Below are positions 35,633-47,646 of a stretch of 64,000 nucleotides of DNA, piece after piece. The position numbers and the translations under genes were made by a program. How positions within the stretch are numbered: position 1 is the first letter of the stretch; each line of letters opens with the position of its first letter. The stretch lies in contig ONFO01000002.1 of assembly GCA_900317155.1 (NCBI GenBank), forward strand, positions 94,112 through 158,111, written 5' to 3'. The stretch comes from an uncultured Bacteroidales bacterium. Its GTDB lineage: Bacteria; Bacteroidota; Bacteroidia; Bacteroidales; F082. A model generated the notes under the pieces. The model ran no database searches. It had not been told where the DNA came from and was given only the letters and a program-made list of their open reading frames with translations.

Positions 35633-35636
35633 AAAA

Positions 35637-35708
35637 ACGCCCACGATTTTTATCTCTAATTCCAAAAATACTTCAGTAAAAATCTCTAATTCTCAAATTC
35701 TTAATAAA
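35637..35708 (+). repeat. Truncated, diverged copy of the 171-bp repeat
   Basis: CACGATTTTTATCTCTAATT, then CTCTAATTCTCAAATTCTTA, run parallel to the right-hand half of the repeats at 45559 and 46154. It sits directly after the dut stop codon, as the two full copies sit directly after stop codons. The left half is missing. Confidence 0.6.
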
Positions 35709-38631: not shown

Positions 38632-38639
38632 TATTTTTG
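38632..38639 (+). promoter_or_regulatory. Promoter -7 box for the RhuM-family gene
   Basis: TATTTTTG matches TAnnTTTG, with TTG at 38609-38611 as a possible -33 element 20 bases upstream. The start codon at 38660 is 20 bases downstream. Confidence 0.5.
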
Positions 38640-38659
38640 TGCCATATTTATTCAATATC

Positions 38660-39568
38660 ATGGATCAAGGCGAAAACATGTTTCTTTTACCAGCCTCGAC
38701 TAACACTGGGGAAATCGTTCTTTACCAGCCCAATGACCAACTTTCATTGGAAGTCAAATTAGAGAACGAAACGGTATGGCTAACCCAACAGCAAATGGCA
38801 GTCTTGTTTGATGTAAAAGAGAACAACATAACTTACCATATTCAAAGTGTTTTCAAAACCCATGAACTCGACCCGGAGGCAACTACTCAAAAAATTAGAG
38901 TAGTTCGAAAAGAGGGAAACCGACAAGTAAGCCGCAACATCGATTTCTATAACCTTGACATGATTATCTCTGTTGGCTATCGGGTTAATAGTGCAAACGC
39001 AACGCAGTTTCGCCGTTGGGCCACCTCTATTTTAAAAGAATACATGTTGAAAGGCTATGCGGTAAACCAGAGGTTGATTGCGATGGAAGAACGCATTGAC
39101 AGACGGCTTGCCCAACATGAGAGTGTTTTACAAGAACATCAAGAAAAGATAGATTTTTTTGTCCGTACAAACTTGCCACCAGTGGAGCAAGTGTTTTTCG
39201 AGGGGGAGTTTTTCGAAGCCCGTGTGTTGCTTGAAAAACTCATCAAAAGCGCACAAAAACGGATTGTTATCATTGATGGATATATAGATGCCGTTATTTT
39301 CGAGATACTTGATGTACGCAATCAAGGTGTTTCAGCCGACATCTATTCAGGCAAAGACTTAACCAATTTAAGGAATACTCACAATGCCTCTTCAGGTGCT
39401 GGGCTGATAGAAACGCATTTGTGGTCAAAGCCTTCACATGACCGTTGGATAATCATAGACGATTCTCTGTATCATTGTGGACACTCACTAAAGGACATGG
39501 GAAAAAAACTTTCTGCCATTATGCTGATGGGAACTGCTCCCGAAACCATACTTGACCAAATAAGATAA
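38660..39568 (+). CDS. RhuM-family protein with PLD-like C-terminal region
   Basis: A 302-residue protein. The N-terminal half (WLTQQQMAVLFDVKENNITYHI..., EGNRQVSRNIDFYNLDMIISVGYRVNS, FRRWATSILKEYMLKGYAVN) matches the RhuM/Fic-adjacent family named from a Salmonella pathogenicity island. A short coiled coil follows, and the C-terminal part (VEQVFFEGEFFEA..., then KRIVIIDGYID and HDRWIIIDDSLYHCG) resembles a phospholipase-D-like half-domain with an HD pair. Such proteins are common in mobile or accessory DNA; their activity is not established. ATG 38660 is used rather than the GTG at 38639. It lies in the insert that separates the TPR gene from DUF4292. Confidence 0.75.
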   Translation: MDQGENMFLLPASTNTGEIVLYQPNDQLSLEVKLENETVWLTQQQMAVLFDVKENNITYHIQSVFKTHELDPEATTQKIRVVRKEGNRQVSRNIDFYNLDMIISVGYRVNSANATQFRRWATSILKEYMLKGYAVNQRLIAMEERIDRRLAQHESVLQEHQEKIDFFVRTNLPPVEQVFFEGEFFEARVLLEKLIKSAQKRIVIIDGYIDAVIFEILDVRNQGVSADIYSGKDLTNLRNTHNASSGAGLIETHLWSKPSHDRWIIIDDSLYHCGHSLKDMGKKLSAIMLMGTAPETILDQIR

Positions 39569-43444: not shown

Positions 43445-44386
43445 ATGAACAAAAACAGTAAAATATATGTTGCAGGACACCGTGGCATGGTGGGCTCTGC
43501 AATTGTGCGCGAATTACAGCGCCAAGGCTACCATAATATCATCACCCGCACCCATAAGGAACTTGACCTCTGCCGTCAAGAACAAGTGGAAGCTTTCTTT
43601 GCCGCCGAGAAGCCAGAATATGTCTTCCTCGCCGCCGCCAAAGTCGGAGGTATCATCGCAAACCAAAACGCCCTCGCCGACTTCATGTACGACAACATGA
43701 TCCTCGAAATGAACGTCATCCATTCCGCTTGGAAGAACGGCTGCAAGAAATTGGAGTTCCTCGGCTCGTCATGCATCTATCCCCGCATGGCACCACAGCC
43801 CATGACAGAAAGCTGCCTGCTCACGGGAGAGTTGGAGAAAACCAATGAAGCCTATGCTTTGGCAAAAATATCAGGCCTGAAATACTGCGAGTTCCTCAAC
43901 CGCCAGTACGGCACCGATTACATCAGCGTGATGCCCACTAATCTTTATGGGCCCAACGACAACTATCATCCCGAACACAGCCATGTGCTGCCCGCCTTGA
44001 TTCGTCGTTTTCATGAGGCCAAGGTCAACGGGCTGAAGGAAGTGACCTGTTGGGGCGACGGTTCGCCCTTGCGTGAGTTCCTTTATGTGGACGACCTTGC
44101 CAACCTCTGCGTCTTCCTGATGAACAACTATAGCGGCAACGAGACCGTCAATGCTGGAACAGGCAAGGAACTGACCATCAAAGCTCTGACGGAATTGGTG
44201 GCCAAGGTGGTCGGTTATGAAGGCGAAATCAAATGGGATACCACACGTCCGAACGGCACACCCCGTAAGTTGTTGGATGTTAGCAAGGCTGAGAAGTTGG
44301 GGTGGCGTTATAAGACGGAGTTGGAAGATGGCATTCGTTTGGCTTATGATGACTTTTTGAATAATCCGATGAGAGCGGAAAGATGA
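43445..44386 (+). CDS. fcl: GDP-L-fucose synthase
   Basis: A 313-residue SDR of the Fcl/WcaG type. AGHRGMVGSAIVREL (NADPH-binding, about 10-24), AAAKVGGI, LGSSCIYPRMAPQPM and the Tyr-xxx-Lys pair in NEAYALAKISGLKYCE are all present, as is the C-terminal NGTPRKLLDVSKAEKLGW. It epimerises C3 and C5 and reduces C4 of GDP-4-keto-6-deoxymannose to GDP-L-fucose. The fusion gene at 44383 overlaps its stop codon by 4 bases. Confidence 0.96.
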   Translation: MNKNSKIYVAGHRGMVGSAIVRELQRQGYHNIITRTHKELDLCRQEQVEAFFAAEKPEYVFLAAAKVGGIIANQNALADFMYDNMILEMNVIHSAWKNGCKKLEFLGSSCIYPRMAPQPMTESCLLTGELEKTNEAYALAKISGLKYCEFLNRQYGTDYISVMPTNLYGPNDNYHPEHSHVLPALIRRFHEAKVNGLKEVTCWGDGSPLREFLYVDDLANLCVFLMNNYSGNETVNAGTGKELTIKALTELVAKVVGYEGEIKWDTTRPNGTPRKLLDVSKAEKLGWRYKTELEDGIRLAYDDFLNNPMRAER

Positions 44387-45552
44387 CAAAAAAAGTATTC
44401 GTTTCCGGCTGTTACGACCTCCTGCATAGCGGTCACGTTGAATTCTTTCGACAAGCTTCGCAATATGGCGACCTATACGTCGGCATCGGCTCCGACGAAA
44501 CCATCCTACATTACAAAAAACACAAGACGCTTTATCCCGAAAACGAACGCCTTTTCATGGTTAAGGCTATCCGCTACGTGAAAGACGCTTTCATCAACGA
44601 TGGGGCAGGGGTGATGGACTTCATCGGCACGGTCGACAGACTGAAACCCGATATCTTTGTGGTCAATGAGGATGGAGCTTCTGATGAAAAACGTCAGTTT
44701 TGCGAGGAACGTGGCATTGAATACGTGGTGCTGCAACGCACCCCTTCCGAAGGACTGGAAGCCCGTTCATCGACAGCTTTGAAGAAAGACCTTTGCCAGA
44801 TTCCCACTCGCTTGGACCTCGCCGGCACTTGGATTGATCAACCCTACGTCTCATTTTTTGCTCCAGGATGGGCTATCACCATTTCTTTGGAGCCCACCTT
44901 CGAGGTGCGCGAACGTTGTGGCCTTTCCACTTCGACACGCAACATGATCAAGAAAATCTGGCCGATGAAGCTGCCCGACATGGATCCCGAGATTTTAGCC
45001 AAGCTGGTCTTCTGTTTTGAGAACGACCCTGAGCGCAACGACGGCATCATCAGCGGGGCGCAAGACAGCATCGGCATCTGTATACCTGGCCTGGTGCGGC
45101 ATTATTACGACAAACTCTACTGGCCCATTAAATTCGAGACTTGCCAAGACGAAACCATCCTTAGTTGGCTTGAGCAACACCTCATTATGATACCCATGGA
45201 ACCGCGGCAACCAGGTTGCTCGGTAGTGGACGGCAAAGACATCACGGAGCCGAAAGTCAAGGCGTTGGCCAAGGCCGCTGATGACTGCTGGAAGGCTATC
45301 ATGAAAAGAGATTTAGAGGATTTTGCAGCGGCCTATAAAGCCTCGTTCAACGCCCAAACCGCCATGTTCCCCGCAATGATTCAAGGCTCGGTGCAGGATT
45401 ATATTGACAAATATTCCGCTATGGACGAAGTGTTGGCCTGGAAAATGCCTGGAGCCGGAGGAGGAGGTTACCTTGCTTGCGTGGTCAAAGATTCGGTTGC
45501 TTTTTATCAGGCTCATCCCGAAGCTATTTGTCTTGTTATTAGAAGAAAGTAA
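44383..45552 (+). CDS. Cytidylyltransferase-like/GHMP kinase-like fusion protein
   Basis: A 389-residue two-domain protein. Residues 1-137 form a nucleotidyltransferase of the cytidylyltransferase type: GCYDLLHSGH (9-18) is the HxGH motif and ARSSTALKK (127-135) the second signature. Residues 138-389 resemble a GHMP sugar kinase of the fucokinase/HddA branch: PTRLDLAGTWID (141-152), GAQD (225-228) and GAGGGGYLACVV (357-368). The usual GLGSSSA phosphate loop is not clear; CGLSTSTRN at 179-187 may be a degenerate form. It overlaps fcl by 4 bases and precedes the fucP and mutarotase genes, so a role in activating a fucose-type sugar is plausible but unproven. No FKP gene is present in the window. 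Confidence 0.75.
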   Translation: MTKKVFVSGCYDLLHSGHVEFFRQASQYGDLYVGIGSDETILHYKKHKTLYPENERLFMVKAIRYVKDAFINDGAGVMDFIGTVDRLKPDIFVVNEDGASDEKRQFCEERGIEYVVLQRTPSEGLEARSSTALKKDLCQIPTRLDLAGTWIDQPYVSFFAPGWAITISLEPTFEVRERCGLSTSTRNMIKKIWPMKLPDMDPEILAKLVFCFENDPERNDGIISGAQDSIGICIPGLVRHYYDKLYWPIKFETCQDETILSWLEQHLIMIPMEPRQPGCSVVDGKDITEPKVKALAKAADDCWKAIMKRDLEDFAAAYKASFNAQTAMFPAMIQGSVQDYIDKYSAMDEVLAWKMPGAGGGGYLACVVKDSVAFYQAHPEAICLVIRRK

Positions 45553-45558
45553 TTATTT

Positions 45559-45729
45559 ATCAAGAATTTGAGAATTAGAGAAAAATGCCGAGTCGAGTTA
45601 TACAGAAGTTTTGCACCTTCGGTGCGTTGAATTGGAGAACCGAAAATCGTTCACGATTTTCATCTCTAATTCTAAAAATTCAAATGAAGACCCAAAATGA
45701 AAATTCTAAAATTCTCTAATTCTTGATAA
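45559..45729 (+). repeat. 171-bp structured repeat, left copy (R1)
   Basis: Identical to 46154-46324 except at 5 positions (97%). The ends are imperfect inverted repeats: TCAAGAATTTGAGAATTAGA at the left, and the complement of the right end reads TCAAGAATTAGAGAATTTCA. Inside are two perfect hairpins, GCACC-TTC-GGTGC and GAAAATCG-4-base loop-CGATTTTC. It starts 6 bases after the stop codon of the fusion gene. No open reading frame of note is inside. It looks like a MITE- or REPIN-like element. Confidence 0.9.
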
Positions 45730-45745
45730 GACAAAACAACGTGAT

Positions 45746-46147
45746 ATGAGCGGTTTAATTTACCCAACAGAGAGTGGAAAACTATTTGGCTTAGCATTGC
45801 AACTTCATAAAGAACTTGGATGTGGCTTTAAAGAGAAAGTGTATCAAGACGCTTTTGAAGTGCTTTTGCAAGAAAACAATATTCCATACGAAAGAGAAAA
45901 ACACATTGAGATAGAGTATCATGGAGTTGTTTTGGAACATGGTTTTTTCTATGATTTCTTATGTTATGACAAAATCGGCGTCGAGCTGAAAGCATTTACT
46001 GAAATTACTGGAGAATTTGAAAGTCAACTGATCAACTATCTTCACGTTGGAAATCATCAACTTGGATTATTGCTGAATTTCGGATCAAGCAGTCTGCAAT
46101 ATAAGTGGATTCCAAACAGAAAAGATTATAAAGGAAAGCGAATATAA
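45746..46147 (+). CDS. GxxExxY family protein, PD-(D/E)xK nuclease-like
   Basis: A 133-residue protein with the family signature GFKEKVY at residues 27-33 (GxxExxY). A PD-(D/E)xK-type active site appears intact: Asp70 in FFYDFL, Glu80-x-Lys82 in VELKAF, and Gln94 in ESQLINYL. GxxExxY proteins are short, occur in many paralogous copies in Bacteroidota, cyanobacteria and planctomycetes, and have no established activity to my knowledge. The gene is framed tightly by two 171-bp direct repeats, with 16 bases before the start and 6 after the stop. It interrupts the fucose locus between the fusion gene and fucP. Codon use is more A+T-rich than its neighbours, which suggests a separate origin. Confidence 0.88.
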   Translation: MSGLIYPTESGKLFGLALQLHKELGCGFKEKVYQDAFEVLLQENNIPYEREKHIEIEYHGVVLEHGFFYDFLCYDKIGVELKAFTEITGEFESQLINYLHVGNHQLGLLLNFGSSSLQYKWIPNRKDYKGKRI

Positions 46148-46153
46148 ATAATA

Positions 46154-46324
46154 ATCAAGAATTTGAGAATTAGAGAAAAATGCCGAGTCGAGTCATACAG
46201 AAGTTTTGCACCTTCGGTGCGTTGAATTGGAGAACCGAAAATCGTTCTCGATTTTCATCTCTAATTCTAAAAATTCAAATGAAGACCCGAAATGGAAATT
46301 CTGAAATTCTCTAATTCTTGATAA
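46154..46324 (+). repeat. 171-bp structured repeat, right copy (R2)
   Basis: Same element and orientation as 45559-45729, offset by exactly 595 bases with no indel. Four of the 5 differences are transitions (at rep positions corresponding to 46194, 46284, 46289 and 46297, approximately), and the fifth (A/T) falls in the loop of the GAAAATCG hairpin, so pairing is kept. It starts 6 bases after the GxxExxY stop codon and ends 26 bases before fucP. Confidence 0.9.
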
Positions 46325-46350
46325 AACCAATTGATATAAAATACTTGAAT

Positions 46351-47646
46351 ATGAATAAAGTAGTAGAAAGAAAGTACCTCTTGGCCTTCGTGCTGGTGAC
46401 GTGTTGCTTTGCCCTTTGGGGCTTCGCCAACGACATCACCAACCCCATGGTGAAGGCCTTCTCGAAAATCTTCCGCATGAGCGTCACCGACGGCGCCTTG
46501 GTGCAATTGGCCTTCTATGGCGGCTATTTCTGCATGGCCCTGCCTGCCGCGCTTTTTGTGCGCAAGTTCTCCTACAAAGCCGGTCTCTTGATGGGTCTCG
46601 GACTCTATGCCGTAGGTGCCTTGATGTTCATTCCCGCTAAGGCGACAGGCAATTATTACCCCTTCCTCATCGCCTATTTCGTGCTGACTTGCGGCCTCTC
46701 TTTCCTCGAAACCACAGCCAACCCTTACATTCTTTCCTTGGGCGACAAGGAAACCGCCACGCGCCGCCTCAACCTGGCGCAAGCCTTCAATCCCATAGGC
46801 TCTTTAGCAGGCATGTTCGTGGCGATGAAGTTCATTCAGGCCAAACTCAATCCGTTGAGCACCGAGGAACGTGCCTTACTCTCAGAAGACCAATTTGAGG
46901 CTGTGAAAAGTGCCGACCTCGCTGTACTGAGCCGACCCTATGTCATCATCGGAGCGGTGTTAGTAGCGTTCTTTATCGTCATTCTGCTGTTGGTGAAAAC
47001 TCAAGCTAAGACAGACGAAAGCTCTGACCAAAATTTCGGTTCCACGGTGAAACGGCTTTGGCAGAACAAACCCTATCGTTATGGTGTACTGGCACAGTTT
47101 TTCTATGTCGGTGTGCAAATCATGTGCTGGACCTTCATCATCCAATATGGCACGCGTGTCTTCATGAACGAAGGCATGACAGAACAGGCCGCTGAAGTGC
47201 TCTCGCAACGCTACAACATCGTGGCTATGGCCATCTTTTGTGTAAGCCGATTCATCTGCACCTTCTTGCTGAAATACATCAGTCCCTCCAAGCTGCTCAC
47301 CTATTTGGGCATTGCTGGAGCCGTGCTGGTTTTAGGTGTGATTTTCCTCGACGGTCGTGCTGGAATGTATTGCCTGGTGGCGGTCTCTGCCTGCATGAGC
47401 CTTATGTTCCCGACCATCTACGGCATCGCCTTGACCAATACCGGCGACGATGCCAAGTTGGGTGCCGCTGGCCTCATCATGGCCATCTTGGGTGGCTCGG
47501 TGCTGCCTCCTTTGCAGGCCCGCATTATCGATGGCGGCGGAATCGGAAGCATTGCTTCGGTGAATTTGAGCTTCATCCTGCCGCTGATTTGCTTTATTGT
47601 CATCGTACTTTACGGTCATTTCGTTACCAAACTCAATAAACAATGA
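46351..47646 (+). CDS. fucP: L-fucose:H+ symporter
   Basis: A 431-residue major facilitator protein with 12 predicted helices. The N-terminal LVTCCFALWGFANDITNPMVKAFSKIFRMS is the hallmark of the FucP/sugar-porter branch that includes fucose and glucose/galactose permeases, followed by GLSFLETTANPYILSLG and the C-terminal FPTIYGIALTNTGDDAKLGAAGLIMAILGG. It should import L-fucose with protons across the inner membrane. Start is ATG 46351; the frame opens at 46318 inside the repeat. It overlaps the mutarotase gene by 4 bases. The lack of nearby fucI/fucK/fucA argues for use of imported fucose in glycan synthesis, but catabolic genes could be elsewhere. Confidence 0.9.
   Translation: MNKVVERKYLLAFVLVTCCFALWGFANDITNPMVKAFSKIFRMSVTDGALVQLAFYGGYFCMALPAALFVRKFSYKAGLLMGLGLYAVGALMFIPAKATGNYYPFLIAYFVLTCGLSFLETTANPYILSLGDKETATRRLNLAQAFNPIGSLAGMFVAMKFIQAKLNPLSTEERALLSEDQFEAVKSADLAVLSRPYVIIGAVLVAFFIVILLLVKTQAKTDESSDQNFGSTVKRLWQNKPYRYGVLAQFFYVGVQIMCWTFIIQYGTRVFMNEGMTEQAAEVLSQRYNIVAMAIFCVSRFICTFLLKYISPSKLLTYLGIAGAVLVLGVIFLDGRAGMYCLVAVSACMSLMFPTIYGIALTNTGDDAKLGAAGLIMAILGGSVLPPLQARIIDGGGIGSIASVNLSFILPLICFIVIVLYGHFVTKLNKQ

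Follow-up and report, generated by a model that had tools for sequence, protein, structure and literature searches.

Short word arrays bracket GxxExxY genes of predicted nucleases: a candidate repeat-associated system

Genes of the GxxExxY family are often bracketed by arrays of short DNA words, and the arrangement found in the window, the 64,000-nt stretch of DNA from an uncultured Bacteroidales bacterium that was analysed here, is one case of this general pattern. The best reading of the pattern, to which a probability of about one half is assigned, is a repeat-associated nuclease system that resembles a REPtron in its working and is built from unrelated parts. Searches of the open-access literature found no description of repeats around GxxExxY genes and no role for the family.

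The window gene and its palindromic repeats

The GxxExxY gene of the window lies between two repeats, R1 and R2 (Table 1). Re-reading of the sequence showed that the layout reported by the first-pass annotation is exact (R1, 16 nt, the gene, 6 nt and R2), and it confirmed that the repeats have the same orientation and 97% identity across 171 nt, with a TAA stop 6 nt ahead of each. A repeat search listed R1 and R2 as the sole direct-repeat family in 45000-47000. Palindromes had gone unmentioned in that annotation, and their recognition is an addition to it: each repeat is itself palindromic, with terminal inverted repeats of 24-26 nt (88% complementary) and inner hairpins. When the 171-bp repeat was sought genome-wide, a third full-length copy (78%) was found at C44:11417-11579, and six shorter relatives occur elsewhere in the source genome. 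The gene sits between protein genes, outside 23S rRNA, and its neighbours are sugar genes. No transposase was found among the five window genes scanned for domains, and Rfam over 45400-46500 returned a single chance-level match (E 0.7) that is not credible. A RhuM-family gene (PF13310) is located at 38639-39568 of the window, ~6 kb upstream of the GxxExxY gene.

Table 1. Positions in the window of the GxxExxY gene, its repeats and its neighbours
Feature	Position	Strand	Evidence
Solo truncated right half of R-type element, directly 3' of TAA stop	35633-35708	+	end point by eye
Cytidylyltransferase-like fusion gene of fucose locus, upstream neighbour	44383-45552	+	PF01467 E 6.3e-15
R1, palindromic 171-bp repeat	45559-45729	+	97% identity to R2; terminal inverted repeats 88% complementary
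R1 left arm, GAATTAGA-type words, 8-9 nt period	45559-45582	+	inverted-pair search
R1 inner hairpin GCACCTTCGGTGC	45613-45625		from sequence; folding
R1 inner hairpin GAAAATCGTTCACGATTTTC	45642-45661		repeat search and folding
R1 right arm, reverse complement of left arm	45706-45729	-	repeat search
GxxExxY protein, small PD-(D/E)XK nuclease family, 133 aa	45746-46147	+	TIGR04256 E 1.9e-33, PF13366 E 3.6e-31
R2, palindromic 171-bp repeat	46154-46324	+	repeat search, alignment to R1
R2 inner hairpin GCACCTTCGGTGC	46208-46220		from sequence
R2 inner hairpin GAAAATCGTTCTCGATTTTC	46237-46256		repeat search
MFS transporter, downstream neighbour (fucP in the first-pass annotation)	46354-47646	+	PF07690 E 2.3e-18

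The window protein scored 115.3 bits against the TIGR04256 profile (curated cut-off 35) and 108.4 bits against PF13366 (curated cut-off 22). PDDEXK_3 was the sole Pfam domain in the gene, and HUH-Y1, DDE and other known transposase domains were absent from it by Pfam. The nuclease-type residues noted earlier, D70, E80, K82 and Q94, are intact and invariant across an alignment of 47 sequences that includes the window protein, and Y98 is nearly so. An AlphaFold2 model made with this alignment as input had a pLDDT of 91.5, and the closest solved folds found by Foldseek were Cas4 SSO0001 and lambda exonuclease (4ic1, E 1.1e-4; 6m9k, E 3.6e-4); a sequence search of solved structures gave four matches, the best at E 0.054 and none credible. 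By its predicted fold and motif residues, the protein is thus predicted to be a small PD-(D/E)XK nuclease of the Cas4/RecB/lambda-exonuclease type. It shares the QxxxY motif with Cas4 and lambda exonuclease, and differs from them in its length of ~130 residues and its sugar-gene neighbours. A defence role was set aside, as PADLOC defence models yielded zero match to E 0.1 and PHROGs none for the window protein; the relative L030 matched PHROGs weakly (best E 1e-4, unknown function; E 9e-4, CRISPR/Cas associated).

Word arrays around GxxExxY genes

Three further GxxExxY genes are present elsewhere in the source genome, each flanked by a distinct repeat as judged by eye; by automatic flank score, L013 falls short of the cut that L012 and L014 clear (scores 21-22). 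Across the order, TIGR04256 matches occurred in 53 of the 99 sampled genomes, with a maximum of 12 per genome. The loci read numbered 104 (14 from the source genome, plus 30 and 60 from the longer match list) and gave 92 distinct genes, 88 of them with both flanks. A gene was counted as bracketed when a direct or inverted repeat common to both flanks scored higher than in 99% of mismatched flank pairs. Such a repeat was found in 62/88 genes, as against at most ~2% of mismatched pairs, and the other 26/88 had none above the cut. Named genomes were represented by the best 80 of 588 relatives, of which 76 had an open reading frame and 72 full flanks; here a fixed cut was passed by 46/72 genes vs 8/179 neighbouring open reading frames on the same contigs (Fisher 1.8e-23). 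A pooled set of 239 distinct genes, 232 with both arms, overlaps the order and named-genome sets. Within it, a C-initial pentamer was present at least twice in each arm of 145/232 genes (18.2% of mismatched pairs) and at least three times in each arm of 68/232 (3.9%). Finally, 17 of the 28 analysed loci (30 fetched) were bracketed in ten named genomes, including Planctomycetota, Acidobacteriota and Verrucomicrobiota, a set chosen via ten of the 80 named-genome loci, so that part of its genes were already counted. As a control, ParE toxin genes passed at 3 of 18 usable loci (30 fetched), and these repeats were non-periodic by eye. With the mismatched-pair, neighbouring-frame and ParE controls, low complexity and the composition of intergenic DNA were rejected as sources of the pattern. 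Whether repeats flank other GxxExxY genes had been raised by the first-pass annotation, and the order, named-genome and pooled samples all show that they flank many.

The 171-bp repeat itself was rejected as the general unit, as relatives have the same word-array layout with a different sequence. The general unit is a word of 8-10 bp, present in tandem copies with short spacers on both sides of the gene; examples include CACAAAGG, CGCAAAG, CACAGAGT, CACGAATT, ACGGATT and ACAGATT. A recurrent arm design, recognised by eye, consists of TTTAAC followed by four words at spacings of 9/10, 12/13 and 9/10 nt. The two arms of a gene are often in inverted orientation, and some family members carry simple inverted arms alone; at loci with direct matches, the flanks can be palindromic elements in their own right, free of any gene, as R1 and R2 are in the window. 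Words vary from gene to gene, and the two arms of one gene tend to agree. The bracketing counts may be low, because an arm of the TTGTCTGAA-CAGGATT type, seen by eye in one subfamily, fell below the cut in some loci. At many of the ychF-NUDIX loci (L310-L314 and L333-L357), short hairpins were also observed on the inner side of the arms (GGACGCAAGCGTCC on the left, GCAGCTNNAGCTGC on the right), and these are kept when the words differ.

The fucP junction and the inheritance of its gene

The junction between the fusion gene and fucP was surveyed in 30 genomes of the genus sample, in which 23 fusion-gene loci were readable downstream (the source genome and 21 congeners, one of them, G126, twice) and junction types were told by eye. 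R-type elements accompany the gene in the source genome, in G114 (stub R2) and in G119 (shortened R2), and an R-type solo without the gene, its outer flanks matching, occupies the junction of G122. Solos or arrays of other words are found in seven congeners (G116, G109, G124, G115, G113, G127, where the element is short, and G108, where the gene after the fusion gene is not fucP). In G103 the repeat is of a different type, with CCCGCAATGAGG units, and in G101 an S23 gene (PF05635) lies between inverted AAACTCT arrays. The junction is empty in G126, G105, G117, G110, G102 and G121, where the two genes overlap or lie at most 16 nt apart and no repeat was present; four loci had another context (G106, G107, G112 and the second copy in G126). 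Further gene-bearing alleles, fetched later, came from G178, G185, G186 and G174, the last with a tandem pair of repeats on one flank of the gene. A GxxExxY element is found immediately upstream of the fusion gene in G109 and G124 and one gene further up in G115, and in these three genomes the solo 3' of the fusion gene and the nearby GxxExxY element use the same word by eye. A GIY-YIG gene (PF01541; L173, 2787-3269, minus strand) is positioned just upstream of the G101 fusion gene, and this family may join GxxExxY and S23 as a third one associated with repeats.

The first-pass annotation had cast the window gene as a homing-like cargo, whose nuclease would cleave a resident solo repeat and whose repeat-gene-repeat donor would repair the break. 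Parts of this proposal stand: relatives are flanked as well, and the single empty repeat sought at the junction is present in one congener, G122. Species-specific features common to R1 and R2 in G000 and in G117 are in its favour, as is the variation of R copy number near the gene (the G114 stub, the short palindrome of G119 and the tandem pair of G174). However, the G122 solo could equally result from gene loss through recombination between R1 and R2, simple inverted-arm forms exist (e.g., in G120), and the six repeat-free empty junctions do not fit a site that merely serves as a resident target, the role given to it in that proposal.

Homing would also be expected to leave a trace of transfer in the gene, and a consistent one was not found at four-fold sites. 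Compared with the source genome, four-fold identity in G174 was 47% for the gene and 48% for the fusion gene, and in four nearer species it was 62-65% vs 51-52% (p 0.20-0.27), so that the gene did not significantly exceed the fusion gene in 5/6 comparisons. G186 is the exception, with the gene at 89% vs 67% for the fusion gene (p 0.005) and 76% for fucP (p 0.09), and it speaks for homing. Recent horizontal spread as a general cause was otherwise not borne out at these sites. The window protein is 95-99% identical across the six compared species, and in G174 it retains 95% amino acid identity at 47% four-fold identity; the gene is therefore under strong purifying selection. From these sequence comparisons, the gene at the window junction looks to be inherited mainly vertically. 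What it shares with homing endonuclease genes is a small predicted nuclease product and an apparent link to a site in DNA; it differs in the absence of a consistent four-fold transfer signal and in having a cleavage site that is putative. On this balance, homing is an unlikely explanation.

At other loci, G117 (~80%) and G120 (69%) have homologues of the window gene that are flanked left and right by R-type repeats, in G120 as simple inverted arms only. R-type repeats were present in 5/5 genomes of the genus sample with a homologue at least 69% identical vs 9/25 without one (p 0.014), a count that takes in the gene's own flanks, G120 being without another copy. Gene-free repeat copies are dispersed in genomes at low copy number, and solos were few in three 400-kb samples.

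An ordinary transposon, with terminal inverted repeats, a PD-(D/E)XK transposase and the solos as its MITEs, would account for the inverted arms immediately next to the gene, for gene-free palindromic copies and for the different insertions seen at one junction in different species. It is a rather improbable explanation nonetheless, since many species keep the genes at constant sites and comparison by eye of one junction, that between the fusion gene and fucP, revealed no evident target-site duplication. In addition, L030 as query matched 8/72,556 plasmid records and no phage record, and its small alignment matched three viral contigs. The terminal inverted repeats and gene-free copies are shared with MITEs and insertion sequences, from which the window element differs in that its gene has no DDE or HUH domain and in the lack of a target duplication by eye.

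Concerted words and a candidate nuclease-repeat system

A second site showed how words differ among orthologous elements. Relatives of the G105 gene, 64-100% identical, were found in 27/99 genomes of the genus, and 26/27 sit between ychF (PF06071) and a NUDIX gene (PF00293) that is presumably idi. Context was judged by eye, the ychF and NUDIX families were domain-tested in one locus, and the 27th relative, in another context in G112, was left out. Depending on the species, the words at this site are CAGAT, CGGAT or CGAAT, and hairpins and layout are largely retained. Word letters of the left and right arms agreed in 48/52 and 46/52 comparisons (54% across species for the first word), and spacer letters in 25/52 (31% across species). 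The two-letter word agreed between arms in 22/26 species, as against a permuted mean of 8.3 and a maximum of 19 in 20,000 permutations. Because the words agree between arms beyond the spacers, it is the word, more than arm complementarity, that is kept equal. Agreement in wider sets was 44/79 and 35/53 (permuted means 12.8 and 10.5, maxima 27 and 22); phylogenetically independent pairs in these sets were few and below significance (N2, 4.9 same and 0 opposite, p 0.06; N1, fewer).

Across whole genomes, word pairs tend to match the word of the gene. Eight CAGAT species had 21 CGGAT vs 60 CAGAT pairs and eight CGGAT species had 99 CGGAT vs 18 CAGAT pairs (Mann-Whitney p 0.0011; 0.007 when two element matches per genome were subtracted), the two groups of species being largely two clades. 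A reversed-pattern control gave 0 matches for CGGAT in the eight CGGAT species and 14 for CAGAT in the eight CAGAT species; 11 of the latter were in G158, where they outnumber the 5 CAGAT pairs. Left out of the test were the mixed-word G179 (3 CGGAT/12 CAGAT), G144 (0/0), G106 (1/0) and G159 (0/1). The six CGAAT species had 48 CGGAT vs 9 CAGAT pairs, owing to G169, G116 and G178. Misfits to simple word matching were G169 (29/0) and G116 (10/2) among CGAAT species, and G124 (3/4) and G101 (2/5) among genomes with CGGAT-type GxxExxY arms. In the ychF set, the residue two past the Tyr of QxxxY is His in CAGAT elements, except in G159 (Thr), and Lys or Arg in CGAAT and CGGAT elements. A single-residue recognition code is suggestive in this set and was not upheld across the wider family.

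S23 genes are familiar from 23S rRNA intervening sequences, which lie inside rRNA and are excised by RNase III. Among S23 genes (TIGR02436, a four-helix bundle; L105-L134), flanking arrays common to both sides were found in 12/24 usable loci (30 fetched), mostly inverted and with a period of ~7 nt; at most 0.05% of mismatched S23 flank pairs lay above the cut, and the difference in bracketing from ParE had p 0.049. S23 genes are not known to encode nucleases, and they are bracketed too, so the arrays might owe their origin and their uniformity to a host process common to both families; S23 bracketing is the main ground for caution over the nuclease-repeat reading. The intervening sequences with an S23 open reading frame (PF05635/TIGR02436) likewise combine a small open reading frame with repeats, and the window element differs from them in lying between protein genes and encoding a predicted nuclease fold. 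Inverted repeats are reported for such intervening sequences, and tandem heptamers ahead of the S23 open reading frame for the Coxiella one (PMC4990558); the heptamers suggest that elements of this kind belong to the same wider design as the GxxExxY arrays.

The S23 and Coxiella arrangements are also consistent with arrays that serve as regulatory or RNA-processing signals (an operator or hairpin), the protein acting on the transcript, as are the complementarity of the arms and the location of elements between same-strand neighbours (fusion gene-fucP and ychF-NUDIX); this explanation is no more probable than a transposon, since base pairing alone would not be expected to make words agree more than spacers, words are also tandem within one arm, and solos are located away from the gene.

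The observations that the nuclease-repeat reading has to explain are direct ones: bracketing, word structure, arm agreement, solos, presence and absence at one junction, and concerted word differences at an orthologous site, to which purifying selection on the protein and its predicted nuclease fold with the motif residues are added. Word binding by the GxxExxY protein, cleavage, and copying or mobilisation are steps that we infer, recognition because it would account most simply for arms that agree and words that switch together. In this scheme, a small Cas4/RecB-like PD-(D/E)XK nuclease would recognise a short DNA word, several copies of which, about one helical turn apart, would make one arm, and two inverted arms would bracket the gene or form a gene-free solo element. 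The nuclease would cut or nick at its own arms, and repair or replication would copy arms and solos into new intergenic sites, with the gene itself mostly staying put and being passed on vertically. As the preferred word of the protein drifted, the copies on which it could act would drift too, and words would switch in concert. The arrangement in the window would then be a gene with a solo-type element, R1 or R2, on either side.

The closest known parallel in working is the REPtron, described as one long-kept chromosomal RAYT nuclease gene per repeat type, flanked by palindromic REP repeats, with gene-free repeat copies scattered in intergenic DNA (PMC6006769, PMC8049555). The GxxExxY gene is similarly flanked by a cognate repeat with dispersed gene-free copies, and is similarly mainly vertical and under purifying selection, one of six comparisons lying above the fusion gene. 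However, the enzyme is a predicted PD-(D/E)XK nuclease whereas RAYT is HUH-Y1, the repeats are tandem 8-10 bp words in inverted arms, and the words vary among orthologous elements with the two arms agreeing. Copy number differs as well, with at most 29 word pairs per genome (two words counted) vs the 69-235 REPINs given for E. coli genomes (PMC8049555). The GxxExxY system is not a REPtron member, because the HUH domain is missing, and it is set apart from REPtrons because enzyme, repeat and repeat evolution all differ.

Taken more widely, GxxExxY genes and their word arrays may form a widespread, unrecognised nuclease-repeat class, in which each nuclease has a DNA-word specificity of its own and every arm and solo with that word evolves in concert with the protein, and to whose design S23 genes, and perhaps GIY-YIG genes, conform; this wider proposal is tentative, at a little under even odds. 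Cognate word arrays give the GxxExxY family a testable function, and the link would account for a group of short repeats in intergenic DNA. Where orthologous elements use different words, they supply matched protein-site pairs for binding assays, and, if each nuclease does have its own word, they would make up a natural nuclease-target series that could reveal a recognition code. Should the nuclease move the repeats, the family would represent a second, independently evolved REPtron-like system based on a Cas4-like fold.
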